Assembly (NCBI GenBank): GCA_028709785.1
Contig: JAQUTK010000023.1
Coordinates: forward strand, 1 to 58,687
Source: Bacteroidales bacterium
GTDB taxonomy: Bacteria > Bacteroidota > Bacteroidia > Bacteroidales > JAQUTK01
Direction of reading: 5' to 3'
DNA length: 58,687 nucleotides
In this document: positions 7,383 through 44,863 of the stretch, in pieces
Layout of the letters: every line of letters starts with the position of its first letter
How positions within the stretch are numbered: the stretch's first letter is position 1
Notes under the pieces: model-generated
Databases searched by the model: none
What the model was told of the DNA's origin: nothing
The model's input: the letters and a program-made list of their open reading frames with translations, nothing else
Position numbers and translations under genes: made by a program

Positions 7383-7403
7383 GTGAATAAAAGAATTATT
7401 CAC
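7383..7403 (-). other. Perfect hairpin abutting the start codon
   Basis: GTGAATAA and TTATTCAC form an 8-bp perfect stem with a 5-nt loop directly in front of the chosen ATG at 7382. In mRNA it would cover the ribosome-binding region, so it could damp translation of the LRR gene. It could also be chance in an A/T-rich leader. Confidence 0.4.
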
Positions 7404-9987: not shown

Positions 9988-11241
9988 ATGAAAACAACAA
10001 CACTTATTTTTTCCTTGTTTGCGGCAATCCTGACAGGTAACAGTTGTTGTCTGGCAGATGAGCTCAAAGATATAACGACCAATGATACGGTAAAGCAAGA
10101 GTTACAGAGTCTGGTGGAGGCGGAACTTTCATCGTACAAGGCGAAAGTACCTACCTATCCGGGGGGACTTGCTCTGAAAGTGATTACCGGCGATGCCTCC
10201 TATTTTGCTACCGCGGGATTGGCTGCGGGAGTGAACGAGAACATTCACTTCCGGGCTGCGAGTAATACGAAAACAATTACTTCCGCGGCGATCCTCTTGC
10301 TGTATGAACGCGGCAAACTGAAGCTGACGGACTGTCTCACAGACACGATACCGGGCACGACAATGACCTATCTGCCGCGCACGCCGGAATATGATATTGC
10401 TAACAACGATAAGATCACCATCCTGGATCTGCTGCGTCATCGCGCGGGTGTGTTTGATGTGTCGAATGATGCTATTCCCGATACCATACCGGCAGATGTG
10501 CCTTACAAAGGAAAAAACTATCTGGGATATGTGATGGAGAGTGATTCACTGCACACGTTTACTTTCGACGAACTGATCGGGGTGAATGCGGCAACGGGTC
10601 TCTCCTATTTCGCACCGGGCACGGGATATCATTATTCGAATACGGGCTACTCGATACTGGGGAAGATCATCGAACGGGTGTCGCAGGTGTCGTATCAGAA
10701 GTTTGTGACAGACAATATCCTTACTGCCATGGGTATGTATGGTTCTTCGATGCCTGTGCTGGGCACAGACAGAGCGATGCCACAGCCTTTTGTGCCGGGA
10801 TATGTCATGTATGAGGGAAAGATAACGGATGTGTCTGCTTCCAATATATCAGCCAACGTGGCAGAAGGTACACTGATTACCACACCCCTCGAACTGGCTT
10901 CTTTCCTGCGCCGACTACTCAAAGGAGAAGGTCCGCTGTCTCTTCAAACCATAAATGAGATCATGATGAATTATGTTCCAACTAACAATGTGGACGCAGG
11001 AGGCTACGGATGCGGTCTTTCCTATACCAATAACCTGGGTTATGGACATACCGGTGCCCATGAAGGATATCTCTCACTGATGGCATATGATCCGGACCAT
11101 GATATCTCTATTGTCTTGTTTACCAATGTATGGAATCTGAACGACGGGATGGAGAGTCTCTTTTATCAGTTGAACAATATGCTCGAAAGTACTGCCTTCA
11201 AGGCTAAGACCATCCTCTTGAAATCAAAAACGAAGATTTGA
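9988..11241 (+). CDS. Serine beta-lactamase-fold hydrolase (class C/DD-peptidase type)
   Basis: This exported 417-residue protein belongs to the beta-lactamase/PBP4*-like family. It carries the three motifs of that fold: SNTK (Ser92 nucleophile, Lys95), YSN (Tyr216-Asn218) and HTG (His354-Gly356, in place of KTG). The HTG form is common in D-aminopeptidases, esterases and DD-carboxypeptidase-like members rather than in true resistance enzymes. The N-terminus is a hydrophobic signal sequence with a Cys pair near residues 20-21; the lipobox is imperfect, so lipidation is uncertain. A role in peptide or peptidoglycan turnover in the periplasm is plausible, but the substrate cannot be read from the sequence. 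The gene is monocistronic between its own -7 box and a long bidirectional hairpin. Confidence 0.85.
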   Translation: MKTTTLIFSLFAAILTGNSCCLADELKDITTNDTVKQELQSLVEAELSSYKAKVPTYPGGLALKVITGDASYFATAGLAAGVNENIHFRAASNTKTITSAAILLLYERGKLKLTDCLTDTIPGTTMTYLPRTPEYDIANNDKITILDLLRHRAGVFDVSNDAIPDTIPADVPYKGKNYLGYVMESDSLHTFTFDELIGVNAATGLSYFAPGTGYHYSNTGYSILGKIIERVSQVSYQKFVTDNILTAMGMYGSSMPVLGTDRAMPQPFVPGYVMYEGKITDVSASNISANVAEGTLITTPLELASFLRRLLKGEGPLSLQTINEIMMNYVPTNNVDAGGYGCGLSYTNNLGYGHTGAHEGYLSLMAYDPDHDISIVLFTNVWNLNDGMESLFYQLNNMLESTAFKAKTILLKSKTKI

Positions 11242-22557: not shown

Positions 22558-23019
22558 ATGAAAAAATCAATTTTAATGATGGCAACTGCTCTACTGTTTT
22601 CAGTTGCATCAGTGTGTGCTCAGAACCAGGCTCCTCAAGGTCAACAAGGTCAACAAGGACAAAGAATGTCTCCTTCAGAAAGAAATAAAGCGCGCGTCGA
22701 AACAATGGCGAAAGAATTGTCTTTGACAGCTGACCAGAAAACAAAGGTAACTGCATTGTTTGCAAAGAACAGCGCTGAAATGCAAAAGTCTCGTGAGTCT
22801 ATGAGAAATATGTCTCGCGAGGAAATGATGAAAGCAATGACTGCTTCTCAGGATAAGACAAATGCTGAAATGAAGAAAATCCTGAAAGCTGATCAATACA
22901 AGAAGTATATTGAGAACCAGAAGAAAGAACTGAAAGACAGAGCCGCCAGAAGAGGCCAGGGCATGCCGGGCCAAGGTCGTCAGGGAGGTCAAAGACCGCA
23001 AAGAAACAATGCTCAGTAA
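22558..23019 (+). CDS. Small secreted DUF4890-like protein
   Basis: The ATG at 22558 gives 153 residues with a clear signal peptide (MKKSILMMATALLFSVASVCAQ); a 35-codon upstream extension is not secretory and is rejected. The mature part is hydrophilic. It has a Gln/Gly-rich stretch (APQGQQGQQGQ), a helical core (residues 40-125: SLTADQKTKVTALFAKNSAEM ... ILKADQYKKYIENQKKEL) and an Arg/Gly/Gln-rich tail. The core pattern of an LTxxQ-like motif followed by helices resembles CpxP/Spy- and DUF4890-type periplasmic proteins, which in other bacteria act as stress chaperones; that function is inference. It stands alone with its own terminator. Confidence 0.8.
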   Translation: MKKSILMMATALLFSVASVCAQNQAPQGQQGQQGQRMSPSERNKARVETMAKELSLTADQKTKVTALFAKNSAEMQKSRESMRNMSREEMMKAMTASQDKTNAEMKKILKADQYKKYIENQKKELKDRAARRGQGMPGQGRQGGQRPQRNNAQ

Positions 23020-23258: not shown

Positions 23259-23987
23259 ATGAAACATTTAATTCCACTGTTTATTCTCTTACTGGCTCTT
23301 GGTTCGTGTACGAACGAAGAAGGGCTTGGCGGCAGTTCTACAATCGAGGGATATGTCTATTCTGTCTATGTCTATGATGATCTTAAAAAAGACACTTTCC
23401 CTGCCTGCATGGAAGATGTACAGATCCTTTACAGTGACTTGACAGAACTCGACCGGGCAAAGACAGGTCCGACAGGAAAATATAAGTTTGAATATCTTCG
23501 TGAAGGCAAATATTCGCTGTGCACCTATTCTAAAATGCCGGCAAATGATTACAACAAACCGGTGATGACATCCATGAAGGTAAGCGGAAATGATCATACA
23601 TACAAAGCAGACACCCTCTACATACAAGATGGCAAAAGCATTGGGATGACCTATCTTACCGGCACAATCATGATACGTTATTACAACAAATCGACCAATG
23701 ATCTCATCAGAGAAATACCGGCATTTGACCAGGCCCGCGTATATATTGAAAACAAAGCGGATGCCTCCTCCCTGCAGGATGCACGCACCAATGCGGATGG
23801 CCAGTTCTTCTTCTCCCGTTTGCAACCGGGTGAGTATAGAATATCCATTCCCAACGAACGGATGGATGAAACGGTAGCATCAGTCAGCTTTGACATAACG
23901 ATCTCTGAAGATCTAAAGATTACTTTTGACGGCACATTGATGGATGGACATGATATAGGTACTGTACCTGTTCGCGTCAATGTCTGA
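23259..23987 (+). CDS. Lipoprotein with carboxypeptidase-regulatory-like domains
   Basis: This 242-residue lipoprotein has a lipobox ending LALGSC, with Cys17 as the lipidation site. Two beta-sandwich segments resembling carboxypeptidase regulatory/Cna-B-like domains follow: residues 25-125 (STIEGYVYSVYVYDD ... GKYKFEYLREGKYSLCTYS) and 130-242 (GTIMIRYYNKS ... NADGQFFFSRLQPGEYRISIP). It has no catalytic residues. It lies 29 bp before a small secreted protein gene and heads the cluster that contains the VTC and DUF4956 proteins, so it may be an envelope component of that system. The role is unknown. Confidence 0.78.
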   Translation: MKHLIPLFILLLALGSCTNEEGLGGSSTIEGYVYSVYVYDDLKKDTFPACMEDVQILYSDLTELDRAKTGPTGKYKFEYLREGKYSLCTYSKMPANDYNKPVMTSMKVSGNDHTYKADTLYIQDGKSIGMTYLTGTIMIRYYNKSTNDLIREIPAFDQARVYIENKADASSLQDARTNADGQFFFSRLQPGEYRISIPNERMDETVASVSFDITISEDLKITFDGTLMDGHDIGTVPVRVNV

Positions 23988-24016
23988 CAACAATTGATAA
24001 CAAAAAACCTGGAATT

Positions 24017-24418
24017 ATGAAAACAAGAAACGTAATCACCGCCCTGCTTCTGGTAGCACTTCTGGCTCCGGCGTCTGCTATTGCCCAAAAGAAAGAAAAA
24101 GATGGCAAGAAACTTCGTGAAGAAAAAGAATGGGTGACTGAAAGAGGCAAGAAAGTTCTCGATCATATGACTAAATACAACGCGAAAGGCGATAAGGTCG
24201 AAGAAATCGAGTATGCCACTTATGGTCAGAAAGAACGCATTACCTATGAGTATAACGCAGAAGGCAGATTGATCAAGGAATCTTACTTCGATGACCGCGA
24301 TAAGCTCGAAAAGTATATTGTGCCGGAATATGATTCAAGAGGTGTAAAAACAAAAGAAACGACATTTTTGCCCAATAACAAGGTTAAGTCTGTCAAAGAA
24401 TTCGAATATATATATTGA
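24017..24418 (+). CDS. Small secreted protein with YD-like segment
   Basis: This 133-residue exported protein has a signal peptide (MKTRNVITALLLVALLAPASAIAQ). The mature part is charged (KKEKDGKKLREEKEWVTERGKK). It contains short strands like those in RHS/YD-like and MORN-like repeats (YNAKGDKVEEIEYATYG, YNAEGRLIKESYFDDRDKLEKY, YDSRGVKTKE), about three units of 22-25 residues. Its stop codon overlaps the start of the VTC gene (TGATG), so the two are translationally coupled. Function is unknown; coupling suggests it works with the VTC protein at the envelope. Confidence 0.75.
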   Translation: MKTRNVITALLLVALLAPASAIAQKKEKDGKKLREEKEWVTERGKKVLDHMTKYNAKGDKVEEIEYATYGQKERITYEYNAEGRLIKESYFDDRDKLEKYIVPEYDSRGVKTKETTFLPNNKVKSVKEFEYIY

Positions 24419-25224
24419 TGTACTCTCAAGAAATTATCCGTACATTAGAAACCTTTGACCCGATCTCCTTGCAAGAGATGAGTGCTGTTCAGTTGATGAA
24501 CAGAGTCGATACAAAGTTTATCATACCCGTCAAAGATCTCGCCGCCTACCTGAAGTTATCTCAAAAAGATTACTTTTGCCAGGACATCAACGGGGTCAGA
24601 GCTGCAAAGTATGACACGATTTACTTTGACACCAAAGGTCTGGAAATGTATACCGATCATCAAAATGGTCGAAAGAAGCGTCTGAAAATACGCAAACGCT
24701 GCTATACAGAATCACAGTTATCTTTTTTGGAAATCAAGAAGAAGAACAACAAAGGGCGTACCAACAAGGTACGTATCCGTGCTTTCTTTGAGCCTGGTTT
24801 CTCAACCAATGAGTGTCCTCCATTTATTGAGTCAAACACTAAGTATAAATCGGAAGATCTGATTGCTCAGATAAATGTCACATTTTTTCGGATTACACTG
24901 GTCAACAAAGGAATGACAGAGCGTTTGACCATTGACTATGATATCAAATTTAAGAATCTAGTGTACAACACTGAAGGAGGAGTTCCGGAGATGTGTATTG
25001 TAGAGATCAAGCAAAACGGATATCGGCCCTCTCCTTTCAAGACGTTACTCAATGAGCATCATATCAAAAAGCAGAACATAAGCAAGTATTGCTTAGGTAC
25101 TGTATTGACAAATCCTGTTGCGAAGTACAACTCTTTCAAGAGAAAGATTATGCAAATCGCACGAACTGTAAATACAAATATTCACACAATCTCCAATCAT
25201 ATTATTACAAACCAAAATGGATAA
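24418..25224 (+). CDS. VTC-domain protein (polyphosphate-polymerase-like)
   Basis: This 268-residue cytoplasmic protein belongs to the VTC family, named for the catalytic domain of the yeast Vtc4 polyphosphate polymerase (a tunnel-fold/TTM enzyme). Basic and acidic strand motifs match that tunnel: MNRVDTKFIIP near residue 28, YDTIYFDT, RKKRLKIRKRCY near residue 84, LEIKKKNNKGRTNK, LTIDYDIKF and IVEIKQNG near residue 200. Bacterial VTC proteins often pair with DUF4956 membrane proteins; here that gene overlaps by 8 bp. The ATG at 24418 is used rather than a TTG one codon upstream. Making or binding polyphosphate or another polyanion at the membrane is plausible but unproven for bacterial members. 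Confidence 0.85.
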   Translation: MYSQEIIRTLETFDPISLQEMSAVQLMNRVDTKFIIPVKDLAAYLKLSQKDYFCQDINGVRAAKYDTIYFDTKGLEMYTDHQNGRKKRLKIRKRCYTESQLSFLEIKKKNNKGRTNKVRIRAFFEPGFSTNECPPFIESNTKYKSEDLIAQINVTFFRITLVNKGMTERLTIDYDIKFKNLVYNTEGGVPEMCIVEIKQNGYRPSPFKTLLNEHHIKKQNISKYCLGTVLTNPVAKYNSFKRKIMQIARTVNTNIHTISNHIITNQNG

Positions 25225-25885
25225 CACAGATTTCTCTTTGTTTGGTGCTCAAATCTCTGCTACGTACGGAGTATCAGCACTTTTATGGCGATTCCTTATG
25301 AACTTTCTGGTCACAGGAATCATTATCAGATTATTTTACTATGCAAAAAGCAAGCGCCGTGATTATTTCTTCACCTTTGTGCTGATCAGTCTCACCGTCT
25401 TTTTGTTGATTTACTTGTTGGACAGCGTCAAGCTGCAGATAGGAATGGCACTTGGTCTTTTTGCTATCTTTGGTATTATCAGGTATCGTACCGAAAGTAT
25501 TCCTATTCGCGAAATGACCTATCTGTTTGTCGTTATTGGAATCTCTGTGATCAATGGTCTGAGTAATACGGACAATATGGATGTGCTCGTTGTCACAAAC
25601 ATCTTGTTTATCCTGGTGATCTGGCTTATGGAAAGCAGTCGTTTCCTTAAACACACTTCCTGCAAACTGGTCACTTATGATAAGATCGACCTGATCAAAC
25701 CGGAAAAGGAAAAAGAGTTGCTTGCTGACCTGGAAGAACGTACCGGATTGAAAATACAGAAAGTAGAAGTCGGACATATTGATTTTCTGAAAGACATCGC
25801 TTTTGTAAAAATCTATTATTCTCCACTTTATCAGGAAGAAAATACAATTGACGAGATCAGAAGAGCAAAAGAGTATACAGAATAA
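25217..25885 (+). CDS. DUF4956 membrane protein
   Basis: This 222-residue inner-membrane protein has about four hydrophobic segments in residues 20-140 (FLMNFLVTGIIIRLFYYA, FFTFVLISLTVFLLIYLL, MTYLFVVIGISVINGL, VVTNILFILVIWLM). A conserved cytoplasmic motif GLFAIFGIIRYRTESIPIREM lies between two of them. A soluble C-terminal domain (150-222) follows, with a DLEERTGLKIQKVEVG pattern. It overlaps the VTC gene by 8 bp, a typical pairing of DUF4956 with VTC proteins. It may serve as membrane anchor or channel for the VTC enzyme, as membrane subunits do in the yeast VTC complex; this is an inference. Confidence 0.87.
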   Translation: MDNTDFSLFGAQISATYGVSALLWRFLMNFLVTGIIIRLFYYAKSKRRDYFFTFVLISLTVFLLIYLLDSVKLQIGMALGLFAIFGIIRYRTESIPIREMTYLFVVIGISVINGLSNTDNMDVLVVTNILFILVIWLMESSRFLKHTSCKLVTYDKIDLIKPEKEKELLADLEERTGLKIQKVEVGHIDFLKDIAFVKIYYSPLYQEENTIDEIRRAKEYTE

Positions 25886-25894
25886 GAGCCAAAC

Positions 25895-26587
25895 ATGCAC
25901 CAATCAGCCAGACTTTTCATCCTCATGCTGCTCCTGGTATCTCTCATACCGGGGCAGATGATTGCACAGGAAACCAAAGATTGCAACGCAATGCTCGGAG
26001 CTGAAGTCTCAAAGAAATTCAACAAGTCTTTAGATATATCACTCAGCGAAGAGATCCGTTCCAAAAATTTCCTGGAAGAGGTGGATCGTTTATCTACCGG
26101 CGTGGGGATTGCTTACAATCACCCGCGTTTTAAAGATCTGAAAGTAGGTGCAGGCTACGAACTTCTCTCCTATTTCAAAGAGAATCTGATTGATGAAAAC
26201 AGACATCGTTTCTCTGCGTATGTTCAGTATAAATATTCCTACGGATATTTTGATTTCTCCCTTCGCTCCCGTTTCCAGTCAACCTACCGGGATGAGAGCA
26301 TGGGAAATTACAAGGTTAATCCTAAAAATAAATTAAGAAACCGTCTGAATGTAGCGTATAACATATACGGTACTCCATACACTCCTTATACTTCATTTGA
26401 ATTGACCAATACCCTCGGTTTGGTCAATGGAGACTATTTTGACAGATACCGGATACGTTTGGGATGCGAATATCGCCTGAATAAAAAGAGTTCCATCGAT
26501 TTTTTCACCCGCTATTCAAAAGATATCAATCAAAAAGAGGGAGCAGAGATTCTTTCCTTCGGACTTTCTTACCAATTTAAGTTATAA
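25895..26587 (+). CDS. DUF2490-like outer-membrane beta-barrel protein
   Basis: This 230-residue exported protein has a signal peptide (to about residue 25, MIAQE). Alternating amphipathic strands follow throughout (LDISLSEEIRSKNF, LSTGVGIAYNHPRF, LKVGAGYELLSYF, HRFSAYVQYKYSYGYFDFSLRSRFQST). It ends in a terminal barrel strand (AEILSFGLSYQFKL) with an aromatic near the end, as expected for an outer-membrane barrel. The pattern agrees with DUF2490 proteins. It starts 9 bp after the DUF4956 gene and ends before a terminator, so it closes the first transcription unit of the VTC cluster and may offer the outer-membrane part of the same system. Confidence 0.82.
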   Translation: MHQSARLFILMLLLVSLIPGQMIAQETKDCNAMLGAEVSKKFNKSLDISLSEEIRSKNFLEEVDRLSTGVGIAYNHPRFKDLKVGAGYELLSYFKENLIDENRHRFSAYVQYKYSYGYFDFSLRSRFQSTYRDESMGNYKVNPKNKLRNRLNVAYNIYGTPYTPYTSFELTNTLGLVNGDYFDRYRIRLGCEYRLNKKSSIDFFTRYSKDINQKEGAEILSFGLSYQFKL

Positions 26588-26614
26588 GGGTCATTTATTA
26601 AGGTGATTTATATA

Positions 26615-26650
26615 AAAGTTCTTTTCACTGCGGTGGAGAGAACTTTTTTT
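26615..26650 (+). terminator. Terminator inside the VTC cluster
   Basis: AAAGTTCT and AGAACTTT flank an inner CAC/GTG pairing around a TGCG loop, with small internal mismatches, followed by a T-run. It ends the unit 23259-26587 just before a new promoter. Confidence 0.7.
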
Positions 26651-26651
26651 A

Positions 26652-26659
26652 TATATTTG
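26652..26659 (+). promoter_or_regulatory. -7 element for the DUF6057/TolB-like unit
   Basis: TATATTTG is an exact TAnnTTTG match, 29 bp upstream of the ATG at 26688 and directly downstream of the terminator, so the last two genes of the cluster can be expressed on their own. Confidence 0.6.
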
Positions 26660-26687
26660 CACCGATATATACACAAAGCCCTTAAAA

Positions 26688-28511
26688 ATGAATAACAGAA
26701 CGCTGGATATACTTAAATTAGTGCTCTCTACGGTATTCTACCTTGCACTTCCCTCTTTTTATTACGTAAACTTTCGTTACCACTTCGTTGCATCTGAAGA
26801 ATATCAGATGTTTACCACAGACTTTAATCATCTGAAAGAGGCGCTTTCCTATCCCGGCGGTTTGATGGGATACATCGGCGAATTTCTGACCGCCTGCTTT
26901 CACTTCCTGGCGGGTGGTCCGCTGATCACAGGTCTTTCTATTGCCCTCTGTGGCATATTGCTGGAAATCTTGTTTTCCAAGGTACAGAAGAAACACAGTT
27001 TCTTTCTCGTGCCACTCCTTATTGCCTTGCAAATGGCGATTATGCATCTGAACATATTAGTCAACATCTCTTCCACAGCGATGTTGGCTTTTACACTTGG
27101 CTTGGCATTAGGATATGTTTCCATAAAGAAAGAGATGATACGCTGGACAGCCGGTATTCTGATGCTCCTCCTCGCCTACTGGTTGGCAAGCTCATCGGCC
27201 ATTATCCTGTTCACCGTTTTTCTAGTCTGGGAGCTCTTTCAAAGTAAGAATCCGAAGCGATTCATTTTTCTTGGCATATCGGTCCTCATCGTCATTTCAT
27301 TTCCATTGATTGCTCGGATACTCTTGCGCGACAATCACCCGATGACGCTGAGCGTAGCCTATTGGAGTGAGGTTTTTGCCTATGATAAAGTCCTGAAGCC
27401 ATCCTACTTTTTCCCGGTTTGGTTTGCTCCGGCCACCGTGCTCTGCTTCCTTTTTGTATACTATCGTAACCTTGCTAAAAAGATGGCAGTGCTGACCAAG
27501 AAAGGCACCGTTTATCTGCTCATCCTGATCCAGTTTGCCGCGTTCGGCATCTTACTGAAGAAAGGTTTGGACAAGTATGCAATGTACAAAGAGGATGAGG
27601 TCTTCATGAAAGCAGATTACATGGTTAAGAACGAAGAGTGGGAAGAGATTATCCGGATGACCCGCGACGAACTCACCTTATCGCCGATGAACTATCCCTA
27701 TATCAATCTGGCGTTGGCCAAAACCGGAAAGATGTCCACCCTCCTGATGCAATATCCGAACAACAGTACGGATATGATGCTGATTCCTTTCATGCAGGAT
27801 TATCTTTCGGCTAAGATACTCAATCAGATCTTTTATCAGATCGGCGATATCACCAATGCGTTGCACATGGCCTTTGAAGGAGGTGTTTCGACACCGGGAG
27901 CCGCTAACATCATCCTGATGAAAAGGGAGATTGAATGTCGCCTCATCCTGGGAGATTATGTGCTGGCCCAAAAAGAGCTGACAAGAATGGCCCGGACTCC
28001 CTTTCACGGCGCATGGAGCAGAAAGATGCTTCATCTGATCGAAACAAATCCGCAGGCGATCGACGAACTGCCATGGGTTGCTTCCAAGCGAAAGCTACTG
28101 TCCAAGAAAAACACAATCATGAACTTTCAGAACATTGTCCAGGTCTGCCTCCCGTTGCTGGATGCCAATCCCGCCAACTCGGCTGCCTTTCAATATATCA
28201 CCGCCTCCTTCCTGCTGGAGAGTAAATTACAGTATTTTGCCAATATTTATGGTGAGTATTACCCGAATGTGACCGCGGACAAAGTGCCCCCCCTGCACCA
28301 ACAGGTATTAGCCGCCTATCTGGATGCCACGAAGGCACCGGCACAAATGTGGGAAATGGCGCCGATCAGCATGGAAACAAAGCAGGCCTTTGTTGATTTC
28401 CGAAACACTTTCATGAAATACAAACAAGAAAACAGAAGTCTGGACAGTGATTTCGCACGGAAGTTCCAGGGTACTTACTGGCTCTATTATTTGAATAATA
28501 TAAAGAAATGA
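26688..28511 (+). CDS. Membrane protein with C-terminal helical repeats (DUF6057-like)
   Basis: This 607-residue inner-membrane protein has roughly eight to ten hydrophobic helices in residues 10-295 (for example ILKLVLSTVFYLALPSFYY, GPLITGLSIALCGILLEILF, WTAGILMLLLAYWLASSSAIILF, LLILIQFAAFGILL). A soluble half (300-607) is made of TPR/Sel1-like helical hairpins (EEWEEIIRMTRDELTLSP, NIILMKREIECRLILGDYVLAQKEL). It resembles the DUF6057 family of Bacteroidetes. The function is unknown; a scaffold or transporter role is possible. The stop overlaps the start of the next gene by 4 bp (ATGA), so it is coupled to the CxxCH lipoprotein. Confidence 0.75.
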   Translation: MNNRTLDILKLVLSTVFYLALPSFYYVNFRYHFVASEEYQMFTTDFNHLKEALSYPGGLMGYIGEFLTACFHFLAGGPLITGLSIALCGILLEILFSKVQKKHSFFLVPLLIALQMAIMHLNILVNISSTAMLAFTLGLALGYVSIKKEMIRWTAGILMLLLAYWLASSSAIILFTVFLVWELFQSKNPKRFIFLGISVLIVISFPLIARILLRDNHPMTLSVAYWSEVFAYDKVLKPSYFFPVWFAPATVLCFLFVYYRNLAKKMAVLTKKGTVYLLILIQFAAFGILLKKGLDKYAMYKEDEVFMKADYMVKNEEWEEIIRMTRDELTLSPMNYPYINLALAKTGKMSTLLMQYPNNSTDMMLIPFMQDYLSAKILNQIFYQIGDITNALHMAFEGGVSTPGAANIILMKREIECRLILGDYVLAQKELTRMARTPFHGAWSRKMLHLIETNPQAIDELPWVASKRKLLSKKNTIMNFQNIVQVCLPLLDANPANSAAFQYITASFLLESKLQYFANIYGEYYPNVTADKVPPLHQQVLAAYLDATKAPAQMWEMAPISMETKQAFVDFRNTFMKYKQENRSLDSDFARKFQGTYWLYYLNNIKK

Positions 28512-29965
28512 GAAAAATATTTTACCTCTTATGTACTATCTGTCTGCTCTCCGCTTGTGAGAATGGCAAGATTACAACATTTGAAACAGCAACTGTTTCC
28601 CCGGCAATCTTTCCCGATTATGCCGACGTGACTATTCCGGTTAATATTGCCCCCCTTAATTTCAAGTTTACCGGGCCGTGCGACGCTATTCAGGTCTGCA
28701 TCAAGGGGAAGACAGACGAGATTATCTGCAATGGAGCGTATAAGATCTCCATTCCTTCCGGCAAGTGGCGTTCGCTGCTGGAAAAGAATGCCGGCTCAGC
28801 TCTGGAAGTTTCCGTCCTTGTCCGGAAAGAGGGAAAATGGACGAAATATCTTCCTTTTGCCTGGCATGTAGCAGCCGACAAGATCGATTCTTATCTGACC
28901 TACCGCCTCATTGATCCGGGGTATGAGTTATGGAACAAGATGGGCATTTATCAACGTAATCTGGAAGACTTTGACGAGACTCCTATTTACGAGAATACGA
29001 TGAACAATCTTTCCTGTATCAACTGTCACTCATTCTGCAATCAGGATCCGAAAACCTTCTGTTTCCACATGCGTGCACAAAACACCGGTACCTATATCAC
29101 CCGCAATGGCAAGACGGAGAAGCTGAACATGAAAGTAGATAAACTGTATAGTGCTTCCCGCTACCTCAGCTGGCATCCTTCAGGCAAATACATCGCCTTT
29201 TCCATCAATGAGACCAACCAGTTCTTTCACAGTACGGATAAAAACAGGGTGGAAGTATATGACAAGAAGTCGGAAGTGGTCATCTATGATGTGGAAAACC
29301 ACACCTACATTACAAACCCCTGTCTGATGCGGTCGGATGCGTTTGAAACCTTCCCGGCCTTCTCTATGGATGGGAAAACACTCTATTTCTGTTCGGCAGA
29401 CAGTGTCCTGATGCCGAACCAGTTTGCCGAAGCGAAATACAGTATCTGCAAGACGGACTTCAATCCCGATAACGGAACCGTCAGCGGAAAGATCGACACC
29501 GTTTTCTCTGCCCGTCGCACAGGCAAAAGTGCCACCTTGCCACGCTTCTCACCCGATGGTAAGTATCTGCTCTTCTCAATCGCAGACTACGGACAGTTTC
29601 ATATCTGGCACAAGGAAGCGGATCTGTACCTGATCAATCTGAAGACAAACAAGTTATTCAAACCGGAAAATGTCAATTCGAATGACGTGGAGAGCTATCA
29701 CTCCTGGAGCAGCAACAGCCGTTGGATCGTATTCAGCACACGACGGGTCGATGGATTGCACACCGTTCCCTTCTTCACCTACATGGACAAAGAGGGCAAG
29801 ACCTACAAACCGTTTATGCTTCCGCAAAAAGACGCGGACTTCTATGATAACTTCTTCATGTACTACAACATACCGGAGATGGTCAAAGGAAAGGTTGATC
29901 CGGACATCTATCAGATGGATGACATCGTGAAGAACGGCAAAGAAGTAAAGGTCGGCATCAAATAA
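28508..29965 (+). CDS. TolB-like beta-propeller lipoprotein with CxxCH motif
   Basis: This 485-residue lipoprotein has a lipobox ending LLSAC, with Cys17. A beta-rich N-terminal region (25-125) is followed by a short segment holding CINCH (Cys170, Cys173, His174), the CxxCH signature for covalent haem c attachment, with two more cysteines nearby (SFCNQ, TFCFH). Residues 215-440 contain TolB/PD40-type propeller blades (ASRYLSWHPSGKYIAFSIN, AFSMDGKTLYFCSAD, RFSPDGKYLLFSIADYG, HSWSSNSRWIVFSTRR). The pairing of a propeller and a haem motif suggests an envelope electron-transfer or sensing protein, but one CxxCH can also bind another metal. It overlaps the DUF6057-like gene by 4 bp and is followed by a strong bidirectional terminator. 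Confidence 0.82.
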   Translation: MRKIFYLLCTICLLSACENGKITTFETATVSPAIFPDYADVTIPVNIAPLNFKFTGPCDAIQVCIKGKTDEIICNGAYKISIPSGKWRSLLEKNAGSALEVSVLVRKEGKWTKYLPFAWHVAADKIDSYLTYRLIDPGYELWNKMGIYQRNLEDFDETPIYENTMNNLSCINCHSFCNQDPKTFCFHMRAQNTGTYITRNGKTEKLNMKVDKLYSASRYLSWHPSGKYIAFSINETNQFFHSTDKNRVEVYDKKSEVVIYDVENHTYITNPCLMRSDAFETFPAFSMDGKTLYFCSADSVLMPNQFAEAKYSICKTDFNPDNGTVSGKIDTVFSARRTGKSATLPRFSPDGKYLLFSIADYGQFHIWHKEADLYLINLKTNKLFKPENVNSNDVESYHSWSSNSRWIVFSTRRVDGLHTVPFFTYMDKEGKTYKPFMLPQKDADFYDNFFMYYNIPEMVKGKVDPDIYQMDDIVKNGKEVKVGIK

Positions 29966-30049: not shown

Positions 30050-30721
30050 TCAGAGTTGCAGCGAACGAATGATCTCCAATGCCTCTTTACATTTGTCCGT
30101 AACGGCAGACCAGTTCTTTGCTTTCACTACATCTGAAGGAAAGAGATTGGAACCCATACCCACACAAGAAACACCTGCTTTAAACCATGCCTCCAGATTC
30201 TCTTTGGTTGGTTCGACACCGCCCGTCACCATCACTGCAGTCCACGGCATCGGCGCTTTGATGTTCTTGACAAAAGAAGGACCGCCCACATTACCTGCCG
30301 GGAATACCTTTACCACATAGGCACCGCACTCCTGAGCCTGACCAATCTCAGACACCGATCCGCAACCGGGGATATACGGAATCGAACGGCGGTTGCACAC
30401 CTTGAAGATATCCGGGTTCAGCAACGGACCCACCACAAAGTTGGCTCCCAGCTGCAGATAAAGCGCAGCCGTTGGCGCATCAATCACCGAACCAATGCCC
30501 AGCACCAACTCCGGACAAGCCGTAGCCGACCATTTCACCAGTTCGCCAAACACCTCATGTGCAAAGTCCCCGCGGTTGGTAAACTCAAACGCGCGCACTC
30601 CCCCGTCGTAGCAAGCTTTGATCACATTCTTTGCCACTTCCAGATCTTTGTGATAAAACACAGGAACCATCCCTGTCGAGATCATTGCCTGTTCAGTTTG
30701 TATCTTTGTAAATCGTGCCAT
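30050..30721 (-). CDS. eda: KDPG/KHG aldolase
   Basis: This class I aldolase of the KDPG/KHG family (223 residues) splits 2-keto-3-deoxy-6-phosphogluconate into pyruvate and glyceraldehyde-3-phosphate. Family landmarks are the N-terminal FEFTNRGD with the catalytic Glu, [35 protein letters not shown] and [10 protein letters not shown], whose Lys forms the Schiff base. The [14 protein letters not shown] phosphate-binding segment and GMGSNLF near the end complete the barrel. It is the last gene of the five-gene uronate operon, 11 bp after the KDG kinase, and completes the route to central metabolism. Confidence 0.93.
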
Positions 30722-30732
30722 ATCGTATGCTA

Positions 30733-31776
30733 TTAACGGGATACACGGCCTGAGCCGTCCCCTTTCATTAAATTTTCCACCTCAGCTACCGTCACCAGGT
30801 TGAAGTCACCATAGATCGTATGTTTCAAACAAGATGCAGCCACTGCAAACTCCAGCGCTTTCTGATCATCTGTCGGATACGTGATCAATCCATAGATCAA
30901 ACCACCCATAAAAGAGTCTCCACCCCCTACACGATCCACGATATGCGTGATATCGTAGCGTTTGGACTGGAACAGTCTTTCTCCATTATACAACACGCCA
31001 CCCCATGTATTGTGGTTTGCGTTGATCGAACCGCGCAAGGTGATAATCGTCTTCTTCGCACGGGGGAAACGCTTCGTCAGCTGCGTACATACCGATTCAA
31101 ACTCGGCCGCATCCACATGACCATCCGTCTTCGCCACATCAAAACCTTCCGGTTTGATGCCAAAGACCATCTCTGCATCCTCCTCATTACCCAATATCAC
31201 ATCGCATCCCTCGACCAGCGCAGGCATCACTTCCGAAGCCTTCTTGCCATATTTCCACAAGTTCTTGCGATAGTTCAGATCACAGGAAACAGTCACACCC
31301 ATCTTGTTAGCCACTTTGATCGCCTCCAGACAAGCATCGGCCGCACCCTGAGACAGAGCCGGAGTGATACCAGTCCAATGAAACCACTCAGCGTCTTTAA
31401 ACACCTCTTTCCAGTTGATCATACCCGGCTGAATATCCGCGATCGAAGAGTTTGCGCGGTCATACACCACTTTGGATGCACGAGCCACCGCACCCGTTTC
31501 CAGGAAATAAATCCCCAGACGGTCGCCACCATATATGATCTCGTTCGTACCCACATTGTGCTTCCGCAGATCCATTACACAAGCCTGCGCAATATCATTT
31601 TTCGGAAGGCGTGTCACAAACTCTGTCATCAATCCATAATTGGCCAAAGAAACAGCCACATTTGCTTCACCCCCACCGAAAGTCGCTGTAAATTCCGTCG
31701 CCTGACAGAATCGCAGATAGTCCGGAGTTGCCAGACGAAGCATGATCTCACCAAATGTTACAATCTTTTTCGACAT
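30733..31776 (-). CDS. kdgK: 2-keto-3-deoxygluconate kinase (PfkB family)
   Basis: This 347-residue ribokinase-family sugar kinase is predicted to phosphorylate 2-keto-3-deoxygluconate to KDPG. The N-terminal GEIMLRL and [15 protein letters not shown] motifs form the substrate lid. The C-terminal [17 protein letters not shown] holds the anion hole and the catalytic base Asp. The KDG assignment rests on its place between kduD and the KDPG aldolase and on the usual size of the family; sequence alone would only say PfkB carbohydrate kinase. There is a 43-bp gap from kduD and an 11-bp gap to eda. Confidence 0.92.
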
Positions 31777-31819
31777 ACTCTTTTACTAATTAACCTTTAC
31801 CTGTATATTTCTTACCTAT

Positions 31820-32599
31820 TTATTGTGGTTGTTTGCCAATATAGGCGAGGATACCACCATCCACATACAACACATGACCATTAACAAAGTCTGACGCTTC
31901 AGAAGCCAGGAAGATAGCCGGACCTTCGAGATCTTCGGTAGTACCCCAACGTGCAGCAGGCGTCTTCGCGATGATAAACGAATTGAACGGATGTCCCGGT
32001 GTACGAAGCGGAGCCGTCTGCGGAGTCGCGATATAACCCGGTCCGATGCCATTACACTGAATGTTATACTCTCCATATTCCGAAGCGATGTTGCGGGTAA
32101 GCATCTTCAGACCACCTTTGGCAGCCGCATAGGCAGAAACCGTTTCGCGACCCAGTTCGCTCATCATCGAACAGATATTGATAATCTTTCCGGCCCCTTT
32201 CTTTATCATACTTGGAAGGACTGCCTTAGCCACGATAAACGGAGCATTCAGATCCACGTCAATCACCTGACGAAACTCAGCAGCAGTCATCTCGATCATT
32301 GGGATCCGTTTGATGATACCTGCGTTATTGACAAGGATATCAATCACACCCACCTCTTTTTCTATCTTTGCAACCATCTCATTCACCTGATTTTCATTGG
32401 TCACGTCGCACACATATCCGTGTGCTTTGATCCCCTGTGCGGCATACGAAGCTATCCCGTTGTCCACCATCTCTTGTTTGAGGTCATTAAACACAATGGT
32501 AGCTCCTGCCCTTGCATACGCGGAAGCAATAGCAAAACCGATACCATAAGAAGCACCAGTTACAAGTGCCACTTTACCTTCTAATGAGAAATTAACCAT
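31820..32599 (-). CDS. kduD: 2-dehydro-3-deoxy-D-gluconate 5-dehydrogenase
   Basis: This 259-residue short-chain dehydrogenase reduces 3-deoxy-D-glycero-2,5-hexodiulosonate to 2-keto-3-deoxygluconate. The cofactor loop is TGASYGIGFAIA, followed by the NAG motif (VNNAGIIKRIP), a Ser (ICSMMSELG) and the YAAAK catalytic pair (SAYAAAKGGLKML). The block GPGYIATPQTAPLRTPGHPFNSFI is typical of KduD and gluconate 5-dehydrogenases and favours this call over a generic SDR. It follows kduI by 21 bp in the same operon. Confidence 0.93.
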   Translation of the reverse strand: MVNFSLEGKVALVTGASYGIGFAIASAYARAGATIVFNDLKQEMVDNGIASYAAQGIKAHGYVCDVTNENQVNEMVAKIEKEVGVIDILVNNAGIIKRIPMIEMTAAEFRQVIDVDLNAPFIVAKAVLPSMIKKGAGKIINICSMMSELGRETVSAYAAAKGGLKMLTRNIASEYGEYNIQCNGIGPGYIATPQTAPLRTPGHPFNSFIIAKTPAARWGTTEDLEGPAIFLASEASDFVNGHVLYVDGGILAYIGKQPQ

Positions 32600-32620
32600 A
32601 TTCGTATCGTTTATAAGTTG

Positions 32621-33463
32621 TTATTTCAAATCTGTTATTTTGGAAAAGTCCTGATCTCCGTAGTCCAGATTCTCGCCACCCATTCCCCAAATAAAGGTAT
32701 AGTTGCTGGTAGCGGCTGCAGAATGGATCGACCATTCCGGAGAAAGCACTGCCTGATCGCCCTTCATCCAGATGTGACGCGTCTCATCCGGTTCGCCCAT
32801 AAAGTGGCAGACAGCCTGATCCTGGGGTACCTCGAAATAGAAGTAAGCTTCCATACGACGCGAATGCACATGCGCAGGCATCGTATTCCACACACTTCCG
32901 GGAGCCAGTTCGGTCATACCCATCTGGAGCTGACAGGTAGGCAACACCTGATTGACAATCATCTTATTGATGTTACGATGGTTGGACATCTCCAACGCAC
33001 CCATCTCTACGGTGACAGCCTCTTTTTTCGTTACCTTCTTATCCGGATAGTTACGGTGTGCCGGCGTAGAATTAAAATAGAACTTGGCTGGATTGGCAGC
33101 ATCTTTACTCTCAAAAGTAACGATACGATCACCTGAACCAAGATAAAGAGCCTCTTTATATTCCAGTTCAAACTGAGCATCACCGGCTTTTACCACACCG
33201 GGACCACCCACATTAAAGAGTCCCATCTCACGGCGGAATAAGAAAGACGGAGCCTTGAGCGGATCAATTGTTTCCAGCGTGATCACTTCACGCAGCGGCA
33301 TGATACCACCTACCACCATTCGATCATACATCGAATAGACCATATTTACTTCATCGGCAACAAACACTTTTTCAATCAAAAAGTCGTTGCGCAGACGTGC
33401 TGTGTCATAACTTTTCGCATCGGAAGGATGCGCTGCGTAACGCAGTTCGTAATTTGTTTTCAT
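32621..33463 (-). CDS. kduI: 5-keto-4-deoxyuronate isomerase
   Basis: This 280-residue cupin-type isomerase converts 5-keto-4-deoxyuronate, the product that arises from unsaturated uronates released by polysaccharide lyases, to 3-deoxy-D-glycero-2,5-hexodiulosonate. Zinc ligands are visible in PAHVHSRRMEAYFYF (His, His, Glu) and SPEWSIHSAA (His), within the conserved WNTMPAHVHSRR and DETRHIWM blocks. Length and N-terminus (MKTNYELRYAAHPSDAKSYD) are typical of KduI. It lies between the transporter and kduD. Confidence 0.96.
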   Translation of the reverse strand: MKTNYELRYAAHPSDAKSYDTARLRNDFLIEKVFVADEVNMVYSMYDRMVVGGIMPLREVITLETIDPLKAPSFLFRREMGLFNVGGPGVVKAGDAQFELEYKEALYLGSGDRIVTFESKDAANPAKFYFNSTPAHRNYPDKKVTKKEAVTVEMGALEMSNHRNINKMIVNQVLPTCQLQMGMTELAPGSVWNTMPAHVHSRRMEAYFYFEVPQDQAVCHFMGEPDETRHIWMKGDQAVLSPEWSIHSAAATSNYTFIWGMGGENLDYGDQDFSKITDLK

Positions 33464-33491
33464 ATCATTTATCTGTAAATCATTCCACTCA

Positions 33492-35057
33492 TTATAAATC
33501 CTTGATAGGTTTGAACTTCGGCACCAGAAGCTTCATCACCGACCATGCAATGATATAAGCCAGGGCACAGAAGATAAACACCAACATGTAAGCCGTGTAC
33601 ATCTGCGAGTTAACAATCTCACTCTGCAAACGAGCCAGTTCGGAGAAATTAGCCGGGTCAATCGCTTCAAGAGCCGTCTTCACCGATTCCGGCAGTTTGC
33701 TCAACTCCTGCTTACCCAGATTGACAGCCATTCCATGATCATTGACCAGTTTCATGGATACTATGGTGTCGAGATACGCAGCCATAGAGCCACCTGCACT
33801 CCGTACCTGCTCAAAAGTCTGCTCGATACCCGAACTGCGGAAAGTAGAGAACACCAGTCCGGCCCCTTTATTGATCAGCACGGATCCCAGACCACCGGCT
33901 GCTCCACCGATACCGATCACGGTAGCAATCGCTTTCTTCGGAAACATATCGCCTACTGTCGAGAAGATATTTGCCGACCATGCCTGATGCGCCGAACCGG
34001 CAATACCGATGATGACGATAGGCACCCAATAAGAGATATATCCTAATGGCTGAGCCAGCAACACAAACAGAGGGAAAAGCGCGATAATCAACATCGCCGT
34101 CATACGCCCTTTATACGGATTCATTCCCCTGTCGATGAAATAGGTCGGAAACTTACCACCGAAGATCGAACCAAACACCGTGATCGTGTACAACACAGCG
34201 ATAGGCATCGATATCTCTATCCCTTTCATGTTATATTGCGCCAACAGATAAGCCGGAGTCCAGAAAAGGAAAAACCACCATACACCATCTGTCATAAACT
34301 TTCCAAAAGCAAACGCCCAGGTCTGCCGATAGCAGAAACACTTCAGGAAAGAGACCTTTTCTTTCGGTGTGGATGCTTTTAATGCAGCTTCCTCTTTGGC
34401 TGTTTCTTCCGCGGTATTATCTTGTAGAATATATTCCAACTCTGCCTTATTTACCTTTTTATTACGTGTCGGGATCTCATACAAAAACAACCAGGCTATC
34501 ATCCACAAGAAACCCAGCGCACCGATAAGGATAAACGCGCATTCCCATCCCAGATGTACGGCGATCCATGGCACGAGGATAGGTGCAAGTATGGCACCCA
34601 CATTGGCTCCGGAGTTAAATATGCCGGTGGCAAAGGCACGATCGCGTTTCGGAAAGTATTCCGCTGTCGTCTTGATGGCTGCTGGAAAGTTTCCCGCCTC
34701 TCCCAATGCGAGTAACACACGGGCGGTACTGAAGCCCAACACCTTACCCGGCACTAACGGGGCAAGTGCATGCGCACAAGCGGCAGCAGACCAAACGGCA
34801 ATAGACCAGGCATATCCTGCCTTAGTGCCCATCCAGTCGATAAAACGTCCCGCAAAAAGCATGGAGATCGCATACGCACCGGAGAAAATGGATACGATTG
34901 TACCATAATCATCATCTGTCCAACCAAACTCTTTTGCCAAATCACCCTGCAACAAACTCAGCACCTGACGGTCCATGTAATTAATTGTTGTCGCAAAAAA
35001 CAGTAACGCGCAGATGGTCCATCGATACTGCGTCATCTTTTCATTCAATTCCTTCAT
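33492..35057 (-). CDS. MFS hexuronate-type transporter (ExuT-like)
   Basis: This 521-residue inner-membrane carrier of the major facilitator superfamily belongs to the anion:cation symporter branch that includes ExuT and glucarate transporters. It has twelve predicted helices, with the signature NYMDRQVLSLLQGDLAKEFGW in helix 1 and loop, then RFIDWMGTKAGYAWSIAVWS and LGEAGNFPAAIKTTAEYFPKRDRAFATG. An acidic loop follows in the middle (ILQDNTAEETAKEEAALK). It is the first gene of the uronate operon and so likely imports an unsaturated or keto-uronate, possibly galacturonate or glucuronate; the exact substrate is inferred. The loop between helices 11 and 12 is longer than in most members. Confidence 0.9.
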   Translation of the reverse strand: MKELNEKMTQYRWTICALLFFATTINYMDRQVLSLLQGDLAKEFGWTDDDYGTIVSIFSGAYAISMLFAGRFIDWMGTKAGYAWSIAVWSAAACAHALAPLVPGKVLGFSTARVLLALGEAGNFPAAIKTTAEYFPKRDRAFATGIFNSGANVGAILAPILVPWIAVHLGWECAFILIGALGFLWMIAWLFLYEIPTRNKKVNKAELEYILQDNTAEETAKEEAALKASTPKEKVSFLKCFCYRQTWAFAFGKFMTDGVWWFFLFWTPAYLLAQYNMKGIEISMPIAVLYTITVFGSIFGGKFPTYFIDRGMNPYKGRMTAMLIIALFPLFVLLAQPLGYISYWVPIVIIGIAGSAHQAWSANIFSTVGDMFPKKAIATVIGIGGAAGGLGSVLINKGAGLVFSTFRSSGIEQTFEQVRSAGGSMAAYLDTIVSMKLVNDHGMAVNLGKQELSKLPESVKTALEAIDPANFSELARLQSEIVNSQMYTAYMLVFIFCALAYIIAWSVMKLLVPKFKPIKDL

Positions 35058-37629: not shown

Positions 37630-38904
37630 ATGAAAAAGAAACAGTTCGTTGTGGTTCTATTCCTTTTACTCTCCCCGTTTATCTATTCGCAGGGAGTGAC
37701 TATCAGCAAGATAGAGTTGAGTAATTCCTTACAAATGGAGCGAACGGATGAGTCTTTTGTCATCACCCGAAGCGATCTGAAAGCAGTTCGCTCAACACTC
37801 GTACCCATCGTCATCGCTCCAAACGGGGATACTATCCCCTCGCAACTGGATGATATGGATGGCGATAAGAGATGGGACGAACTGGCGTTCGCCTATACGT
37901 TGAAAAGCCGTGAGTCTGTTAAGCTGACGGTGAAATGGATCGCCGCAAACACCTATCCGGTGTTTCCTGTTCGCACCAACATCCGGTACGGAAAGATGAC
38001 CTCACCGGGCCACATCGAAGAACTCACATCCGATTATCGTACCAACAAAGATATCTCGTGGTCAAAGAACTATCCCTATCAAATGGATGGTATCGCCTGG
38101 GAGAACGACAAAATGGGTTTCCGCCACTATTTTGACGGACGAAATAACCGGGACGTGTTTGGCAAATGCATCGCCACGATGGCTCTTGACACGGTAGGGA
38201 TCGGAAAGAACGGAGCTCCGGCCAACACCTATCAGGTAGAGGCAACATGGGGAAGAGACATTCTGAACGTCGGTTCCTCTTTCGGGTTGGGCGGTCTGGC
38301 CATTGCCTCTGAGGATACCATCATCCAGCTGGGCAATGTAAAAAAGGGAATTGAAGACAATGTGGATTCCACAATATATCGTTTGATTACAGAGGGGCCT
38401 GTCCGCTCTGTCTTTCAACTGGATCACAGAGGATGGAATGTCAACAACCGGAAGATAAACCTTTCGCAGAAAATTACTATCTGGGCAGGCAAACGCAATT
38501 ACGAAGACTTAGTACGCATTGAACATCTTCCAGCCGGTTTCAATTTAATCACAGGGATCGTGCGGCTGCAAAACAAAATGCCTCTCGTTCACAGAGAGAG
38601 CAAATCCTATCACTTGATGCTCACGCACGACAAACAGACGATTGCTCCGCTCAAACAGATGGGAATGGCACTGGTTATTCCATCTTCCAACTTTGTAACC
38701 GCCTTCGACACACCCAACAAAGGGACAGGTATTTTGTCCACCTGGTGTACCAAACTCGTGGCAACCAACAGCAAGATTAACTTTGATGTCTATGCGACCT
38801 GGGAACAGGAAGAGAGTCGCTTTGCCGACAGGGATTATTTTATCAGTTATATCCAGTCGGAAGTGGATAAAAAGAGCCATCCGGTCAAAGTAATCTTAAA
38901 GTGA
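37630..38904 (+). CDS. Secreted DUF4861 family protein
   Basis: This 424-residue exported protein has a signal peptide (MKKKQFVVVLFLLLSPFIYSQG). The mature part fits DUF4861. It opens with a short beta domain (LVPIVIAPNGDTIPSQLDDMDGDKRWDELAFAYTL), and a large beta-sandwich carries YPYQMDGIAWENDKMGFRHYFDGRNNRDVFGK and a DxxGxGKNGAP-like motif. DUF4861 genes often sit in polysaccharide-utilisation regions that handle uronate-containing glycans (family knowledge); a sugar-binding or hydrolase role is inferred from that and from the nearby uronate operon. No catalytic pair is certain. It is transcribed alone behind a gap with unusual repeats. Confidence 0.82.
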   Translation: MKKKQFVVVLFLLLSPFIYSQGVTISKIELSNSLQMERTDESFVITRSDLKAVRSTLVPIVIAPNGDTIPSQLDDMDGDKRWDELAFAYTLKSRESVKLTVKWIAANTYPVFPVRTNIRYGKMTSPGHIEELTSDYRTNKDISWSKNYPYQMDGIAWENDKMGFRHYFDGRNNRDVFGKCIATMALDTVGIGKNGAPANTYQVEATWGRDILNVGSSFGLGGLAIASEDTIIQLGNVKKGIEDNVDSTIYRLITEGPVRSVFQLDHRGWNVNNRKINLSQKITIWAGKRNYEDLVRIEHLPAGFNLITGIVRLQNKMPLVHRESKSYHLMLTHDKQTIAPLKQMGMALVIPSSNFVTAFDTPNKGTGILSTWCTKLVATNSKINFDVYATWEQEESRFADRDYFISYIQSEVDKKSHPVKVILK

Positions 38905-43510: not shown

Positions 43511-44863
43511 TTAATTTGTATTCTTGCTCTCTCCCAGCTCTTCACCCTGTGGAAAAGCAACTTTAATGATTGTACCACTGATCTGTAACAACGAAATCTC
43601 ACAGAGTTTCGTATTATATTCTGCAATGGATTGCCGTTCCTCAGCCTCAATCAGACTGTTTTGTGCTTCTCTGAGTTCGATACCCGAAAGATCGCCCAAT
43701 TTGTAGCGGTCTATGGCAATGCTGTAATTTTCCATGGCTGCTACCAGATTCTCCTTTTCCAATGTCCACAGATTCAGGTTATTCCGATAGGCCATCCAGG
43801 AGTTACTCATATCGGCACGGAGCGCCAGTTCCATCTCTTTGATCCTGAGTTGATCATTCTCGATCTCTATCCGCGCGTTCTTTTGTTCGCGCTTCCTGTT
43901 CATTCCGTCAAAGAGGGTGTATCCCAAAGTCACTCCGTAATTGAGTCCCAGCCGTTGCTGACGCTCGGTGGTTCCGCTGCCGTAGGTATTGTCGGTATAT
44001 CCATAGCCTGCGTTCATCCTCAGGTAAGGGTAATTGACACTCTTCACCTTTCTGTATTCCTGCTCGGAGAGCTTCTTATTCTTCTGAACGATGAGCAGCG
44101 AGGTATTGGAAGTGACCGCACTGTTCCATAGCTGTTCTTTTTCCAATGCTACATTGAGCGTGATCGATGTATCTCTCACCCCAACCTCAGCATCGGGTTC
44201 ATCCAGACCCATCAGTTCGCGGAGCCTCACCCGAGAGGTGTGCACCACTTCCAGTTGGGTGATATACTTACTGCTGTCGGCATTAAAATCGACCTTCGCC
44301 TGTTGCAGATCCAGTCGCGACATCGAACCAATGGTATAACGTTCCTCGACGATCCGCAGACGTTCGCGCGACAAGTCCAGCGACGAACGGAGGTTCTTGA
44401 GCCTGGTGGTCTGTCGGATCTGATTGTAATATTCCGAAGAGAGAGAGGAAATAAACGCTTCAATGGTCAAACGGGTATTGAGCGCACCCATCTGTTTCAA
44501 TTCCTTCAATTTCGCATAGTCAGCCTGAATGCCAAATCCATCAAAGACGGTCCAGTTCATATTCAATCCGACATCGGCCGTGGCATTACTGACACCGTTC
44601 ACGCTGGCTTTGGTACCGTTCGTGTAGTCATACTTGTTATCATACACGTTTCCTCCATACCCTGCTTCCACCCCGAGCGTAGGTAAGTAACCGGCATTGC
44701 CGGGTGTTACATTATTATCAGCGATACGTTCCTGATTGCGCACGATACGTATGGAATAGTTTTGTTCCAGTCCGGTGGCAATGCACTCTTCCAGACTCAT
44801 CTCTTTTTGTCCGAAAGATGCCATCGAACAAGCTATACACGCAATTAATATCCCTTTTTTCAT
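43511..44863 (-). CDS. TolC-family outer-membrane efflux channel
   Basis: This 450-residue outer-membrane protein has a short signal peptide (MKKGILIACIACSMASFGQ) and two homologous halves of long coiled helices and beta strands typical of the OEP/TolC family. Landmarks are LEECIATGLEQNYSIRIVRNQ near residue 25, VEAGYGGNVYDN, the helix RLRIVEERYTIGSMSRLDLQQAKVDF and, in the second half, MENYSIAIDRYKLGDLSGIELREAQNSL. It is the exit duct of the tripartite pump. Its ATG overlaps the stop of the RND gene by 4 bp, so it is coupled to the pump. Confidence 0.93.
   Translation of the reverse strand: MKKGILIACIACSMASFGQKEMSLEECIATGLEQNYSIRIVRNQERIADNNVTPGNAGYLPTLGVEAGYGGNVYDNKYDYTNGTKASVNGVSNATADVGLNMNWTVFDGFGIQADYAKLKELKQMGALNTRLTIEAFISSLSSEYYNQIRQTTRLKNLRSSLDLSRERLRIVEERYTIGSMSRLDLQQAKVDFNADSSKYITQLEVVHTSRVRLRELMGLDEPDAEVGVRDTSITLNVALEKEQLWNSAVTSNTSLLIVQKNKKLSEQEYRKVKSVNYPYLRMNAGYGYTDNTYGSGTTERQQRLGLNYGVTLGYTLFDGMNRKREQKNARIEIENDQLRIKEMELALRADMSNSWMAYRNNLNLWTLEKENLVAAMENYSIAIDRYKLGDLSGIELREAQNSLIEAEERQSIAEYNTKLCEISLLQISGTIIKVAFPQGEELGESKNTN

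Follow-up and report, generated by a model that had tools for sequence, protein, structure and literature searches.

A VTC/DUF4956 gene module with predicted outer-membrane partners in Bacteroidales and its possible role in polyanion export

In the yeast VTC complex, a basic belt leads the polyphosphate chain from the tunnel of Vtc4 to a channel lined by Lys and Arg, and mutating these residues eliminated the vacuolar polyphosphate store (PMC9911596, available portions). In Gram-positive bacteria, genes for CotH, a poly-phosphate polymerase, DUF4956 and DUF4832 accompany the pel genes (PMC7112168, in excerpt). Here we analyse a cluster of seven genes, including a VTC and a DUF4956 gene, in a 58,687-nucleotide stretch of a Bacteroidales genome (contig JAQUTK010000023.1; the whole stretch is called the window below). 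The seven genes form two modules, A (23259-26587, genes 1-5) and B (26688-29965, genes 6-7). The VTC/DUF4956 core of module A is conserved among many Bacteroidales; this pairing is already known, and we add to it a set of predicted outer-membrane partners. We propose that the VTC protein may use ATP to make polyphosphate or a closely related polyanion, feeding the chain through DUF4956 into the periplasm, a reading that we hold to be close to an even call. No description of the Bacteroidales module was found in the literature searched, whose coverage excluded preprints and most subscription papers, and the accessible text of PMC10657179 does not describe it.

Module A across Bacteroidales genomes

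Module A opens with a lipoprotein (23259..23987, + strand, as are all seven genes) that carries two transthyretin (TTR)/CarboxypepD-reg-like beta-sandwich stretches (PF17210, PF13620; E 5e-10 to 7e-10), followed by a small exported protein (24017..24418) with a weak RHS/YD-repeat likeness under the Pfam cut-off. The VTC-family gene comes third (24418..25224; PF09359, E 5.6e-25, 88.7 bits against a cut-off of 23); its start was taken as the ATG at 24418, the open reading frame list placing it at a TTG at 24415. Next are a DUF4956 inner-membrane protein, the proposed exporter (25217..25885; E 8.5e-60), and a predicted outer-membrane barrel of the DUF2490 family (25895..26587; E 1.1e-20). The coordinates and Pfam matches bear out the original prediction of seven genes of these families running in one direction. 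Its claim of overlapping or near-overlapping ends holds within genes 1-5 and within genes 6-7, and fails across the 100-bp gap between genes 5 and 6 (successive gaps of 29, -1, -8, 9, 100 and -4 bp).

We surveyed 149 Bacteroidales genomes, this one included. Because partners were looked for with family or single-protein searches, an apparent absence can be missed homology. Matches were found for VTC in 74 genomes, DUF4956 in 79, DUF2490 in 59, the small exported protein in 34, the TTR lipoprotein in 31, and the two families of module B, DUF6057 and a propeller protein, in 21 and 19; five split DUF6057 matches and one split VTC match were merged, and 35 of 42 propeller matches were counted, seven weak ones (E 8e-18 or weaker) being left out. 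DUF4956 lies within 3 kb on the same strand at 78 of the 80 VTC loci and DUF2490 at 33, of which 31 have it downstream. The TTR lipoprotein (26/80) and the small protein (22/80) are, where found within 3 kb, always upstream. Genes 1, 2 and 5 are thus common yet inconstant partners of VTC.

Divided by how strongly the neighbouring DUF4956 scores, these loci are of two kinds, 53 resembling the window and 25 with a weak DUF4956. The window-type loci hold DUF2490 in 33 cases, the TTR lipoprotein in 26 and the small protein in 22, and none of the three was found at any of the 25 others. DUF4956 is directly downstream of VTC in most window-type loci; among 63 VTC-DUF4956 junctions measured, 32 overlap and 48 fall within 20 bp. 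CotH genes lie within 2.5 kb, on either strand, at no fewer than 11 of the 80 VTC loci. At the weak-DUF4956 loci (L002-L013 and others) CotH is found within this distance in at least five. This genome has eleven CotH-family matches, those listed lying on contigs C15, C21, C30 and C53 and none of them on the contig of the window.

A second, named sample was reached through DUF4956 and comprises the best 80 of 585 confirmed loci, which lie nearest to the query. As its scan used the pattern [IM][RK][ED]MTYLF, which selects the MTYLF motif, conservation of MTYLF is no evidence; the RYRT motif and the VTC sites discussed below lay outside the pattern. Here, with profile models built from the same loci on which they were then run, VTC was found in 79 loci, DUF2490 in 73, the small protein in 47, the TTR lipoprotein in 24 and DUF6057 in 1; VTC, DUF4956 and DUF2490 stand together in 71 of 80, and all five genes in 19. 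The two samples overlap (L070, the DUF6057 locus, is taken as G023:C38, and L086 likewise as G078:C1). A Cthe_2159 (PF14262) protein is encoded in 30 of the named loci, together with the TTR lipoprotein in 4 and without it in 26 (e.g. L071, L086, L107-L119). VTC, DUF4956 and DUF2490 recur as a set with products expected in the cytoplasm, inner membrane and outer membrane, which supports the envelope-spanning arrangement first suggested for the cluster. The expected conservation of the neighbourhood stands for this set and does not extend to DUF6057 and the propeller, DUF6057 being rarely near VTC and elsewhere mostly paired with the propeller.

The tunnel enzyme, its membrane partners and the polymer

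The VTC protein has no SPX match in Pfam and no transmembrane-like stretch, and is a predicted cytosolic polyphosphate polymerase. Alone, it found nothing in the PDB by phmmer at E <= 1, and a profile was needed. Its predicted model has a tunnel fold nearest to Vtc4, and the basic tunnel residues, the site-1 Glu and the catalytic Lys are kept in 79-80 of 80 sequences; the equivalent of the catalytic Lys-458 of Vtc4 is present. R92, R94 and E196 correspond to R264, R266 and E426 of Vtc4, which PMC9911596 changed to Ala, Ala and Asn. Both the alignment and the structural model thus retain the basic residues whose loss had been named as what would overturn the original proposal. The protein could instead be a tunnel-fold triphosphatase or polyphosphatase that is linked to the cell periphery and degrades polyphosphate. 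We consider this quite unlikely, since two of the three acidic-patch positions of the hydrolases are basic (R29, K198) and the Lys-458 equivalent is kept, a residue whose mutation has little effect in the hydrolase AtTTM3 (PMC4641920, in excerpt). The third position is an Asp (D31), and on its sequence we count the acidic patch as absent. By the sequence and structure tests at hand the protein passes for a polyphosphate polymerase, and we predict this activity.

DUF4956 has four transmembrane-like stretches and an RYRT motif in which R89 is conserved in 78 of 79 sequences and R91 in all 79. Because of the positive-inside rule we place this motif on the cytoplasmic face, where it would point toward the VTC tunnel; by analogy with the yeast channel, DUF4956 may be the channel for the chain. 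The available portions of PMC4827864 give DUF2490 as TC 1.B.81, a putative porin family of the outer membrane with no established function. An iron table in PMC10434189, as far as its text is accessible, gives BT3498-BT3499 (DUF4956, DUF2490) at -7.6 fold with a value of 0.175, from which we draw nothing.

From the observed gene order, co-location and residue conservation, together with the predicted fold, we infer the following steps. The cytosolic VTC tunnel would elongate polyphosphate; DUF4956 would take up and translocate the chain in the manner of the Vtc1/3/4 membrane channel of yeast; and at the outer membrane the product would be carried or held by the DUF2490 barrel and by the TTR lipoprotein, with the Cthe_2159 lipoprotein in place of the TTR lipoprotein in some relatives. 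We infer a polyanion role for the module as a whole, and the polymer could be another polyanion. A fuller form of the proposal, in which VTC spins polyphosphate through DUF4956 and out via DUF2490 to form a surface coat held by lipoproteins, in some Bacteroidales without PPK, we regard as doubtful.

Neither PPK1 nor PPK2 was found when searched for in this genome (99.83% complete), and VTC is therefore the only candidate polymerase here among the three families searched. This would suit a PPK-free store of polyphosphate in the cytosol, in which DUF4956 would serve as anchor or sensor, nothing would be exported, and the outer-membrane genes would be mere neighbours; over half of the VTC loci are indeed without DUF2490 and the lipoprotein. 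However, the association of DUF2490 (33/53) and the TTR lipoprotein (26/53) with window-type loci, against 0/25 for the other type, makes such a store unlikely, as does PPK1 in 33 of the 52 genomes with a window-type VTC. We also rejected VTC as a general stand-in for PPK1, there being no anticorrelation over the 149 genomes. As many species have both, a separate, envelope-directed job fits better than replacement.

Several points weigh against export of a polyphosphate chain by module A. PPK1 is about as frequent in genomes with VTC (45/74) as in those without (49/75; Fisher p 0.61), so that the two are unrelated. The VIA comparison is narrow at its lower end (14.5 for 3g3t, 14.0 for ygiF), and D31 is acidic where Vtc4 has Thr198, making one of the three patch positions hydrolase-like. 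DUF2490 stands beside only the 33 VTC loci counted above and the complete five-gene set at 17 of 80; this count and the narrow VIA edge slightly lower our confidence both in the proposal and in its fuller, surface-coat form. The channel role of DUF4956 comes by analogy, and the literature searched yielded no biochemistry for this VTC and no experiment on its product. Finally, according to the available text of PMC12345266, deletion of the VTC homologue of Streptococcus intermedius (SIR_1593) leaves cells that still aggregate and make Pel, with no change noted, while the DUF4956-homologue mutant makes more Pel and the CotH-homologue mutant less, both aggregating less.

These S. intermedius mutants favour a role linked to polysaccharide. 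VTC and DUF4956 could be an accessory for handling phosphate or nucleotides that tunes or alters a polysaccharide of the cell surface, as at the Gram-positive Pel loci, with a short or signalling product of VTC that is not exported. The company of pel genes there and the effect of DUF4956- and CotH-homologue deletions on Pel level and aggregation, one not reported for the VTC homologue, are in line with this, as are the carbohydrate-binding Cthe_2159 family in 30 of the 80 named loci and the relatives of LytTR (12/80) and LytS (10/80). On the other hand, Pfam matched none of genes 1-7 to a polysaccharide synthase (of the genes flanking the named loci, the family scan covered a minority), and a pure signal has no obvious need for the complete polymerase-type tunnel kept in nearly all sequences. 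We give this explanation a minority chance.

If the export proposal is true, this would be a bacterial VTC-type polyphosphate route built for export and not for storage, and a common order would carry on its surface a polyanion that some species make without PPK. DUF4956 and DUF2490 would gain a function, and the role of bacterial VTC proteins would become directly testable in a genetically tractable group.

DUF6057 and the propeller lipoprotein

Module B comprises a DUF6057 membrane protein with C-terminal TPR-like helices (26688..28511; E 1.6e-104) and a PD40 propeller lipoprotein (28508..29965; E 1.9e-14). Cys17 lipobox-like N-termini were read directly, by eye, in this last protein and in that of gene 1. 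The CxxCH motif first noticed in the propeller is indeed there, as CINCH at residues 170-174; CxNCH is kept in 22 of 22 propellers, as are H187, R189 and H223, and the protein is a possible heme lipoprotein as judged from these residues. We rejected its identity as TolB of the Tol-Pal system (TIGR02800, 34.1 bits against a cut-off of 343.15).

In the survey, DUF6057 lies within 1 kb of 29 of the 35 propeller matches, and the propeller beside 29 of the 40 DUF6057 matches; only two of these 40, in this genome (G000) and in G023, lie within 10 kb of VTC. This genome has four DUF6057/CxNCH-propeller pairs on four contigs (C18, C23, C53 and C60; L050-L052). Module B is an independent two-gene unit, placed downstream of module A in this genus.

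The original prediction took the seven genes as one machine. In such a machine DUF6057 and the propeller would be late additions acting on the VTC product, and the two modules are adjacent on the same strand in both surveyed genomes of the genus. This is not borne out: DUF6057 is within 3 kb of VTC at 2 of 80 loci, both in this genus, three of the four paralogous module-B pairs of this genome are away from VTC, and a hairpin and the 100-bp gap separate the modules. We consider a single machine very unlikely, and a single operon was rejected on the hairpin and gap and on the co-location counts in both samples. The hairpin (26614..26647, +) is terminator-like, with 15 pairs, 4 of them G-C, and a T-rich tail, but is weak by itself, as the region has 5 such sites where shuffled sequence would lead one to expect 6.7. 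The division into two modules is accordingly drawn from the comparative data, genes 6-7 joining genes 1-5 only in this genus, the hairpin alone being indecisive. A possible promoter element for module B, TATATTTG (26652..26659, +), is a weak match to the Bacteroidetes-type -7 consensus, and is one of 7 such matches on the + strand in 7.7 kb.

No paper on DUF6057 was found in the literature searched. Foldseek returned nothing for it at E <= 0.001; the best-ranked rows beyond that cut-off comprise TPR proteins and other helical ones, together with single chains of OST (E 0.29) and of complex I (E 0.36). A GT-C-like N-terminal half is a lead only, drawn solely from the VIA second look. SusC-like genes accompany 11 of 20 further module-B loci (cluster c2, identified from length and sequence; Pfam served to check one SusD), and glycoside hydrolases occur at four module-B loci among 20 flanking proteins scanned.

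Surrounding genes and comparison with known systems

About 240 bp upstream of module A, on the same strand, lies a gene for a small exported Spy-like protein (22558-23019; likeness to PRK10455 under cut-off). Downstream, on the - strand, is what appears by eye to be a sugar-acid catabolism set (30050-35057: aldolase, sugar kinase, dehydrogenase, isomerase and MFS transporter), and beyond it a DUF4861 protein (37630-38904). The window also encodes an RND transporter (ACR_tran, 44860-47889), a BspA-type leucine-rich repeat protein (6177-7403) and a beta-lactamase-fold protein (9988-11241; PF00144, a family that also takes in esterases). Scans of the window for tRNAs and Rfam families gave no matches.

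Among known systems, the yeast complex (Vtc1/Vtc3/Vtc4) is alike in the predicted tunnel fold, in the basic tunnel residues, site-1 Glu and catalytic Lys of Vtc4, and in having a membrane partner, here encoded next door. It differs in that the protein here is a VTC domain alone, without an SPX match or transmembrane-like stretch, and in that the partner is DUF4956, with genes for a predicted outer-membrane barrel and a lipoprotein added. In NELoc-2 of Clostridium perfringens, VTC-domain genes adjoin a CotH gene, as CotH does at some of the VTC loci surveyed above; its partners are otherwise annotated, and outer-membrane partners do not appear among them in the available part of the article (PMC2879425). 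The Gram-positive Pel accessory set shares with module A the adjoining of VTC and DUF4956. No pel genes were recognised among the genes scanned, and Pfam found neither CotH nor DUF4832 among the seven genes; here a lipoprotein, a small exported protein and an outer-membrane barrel stand instead.

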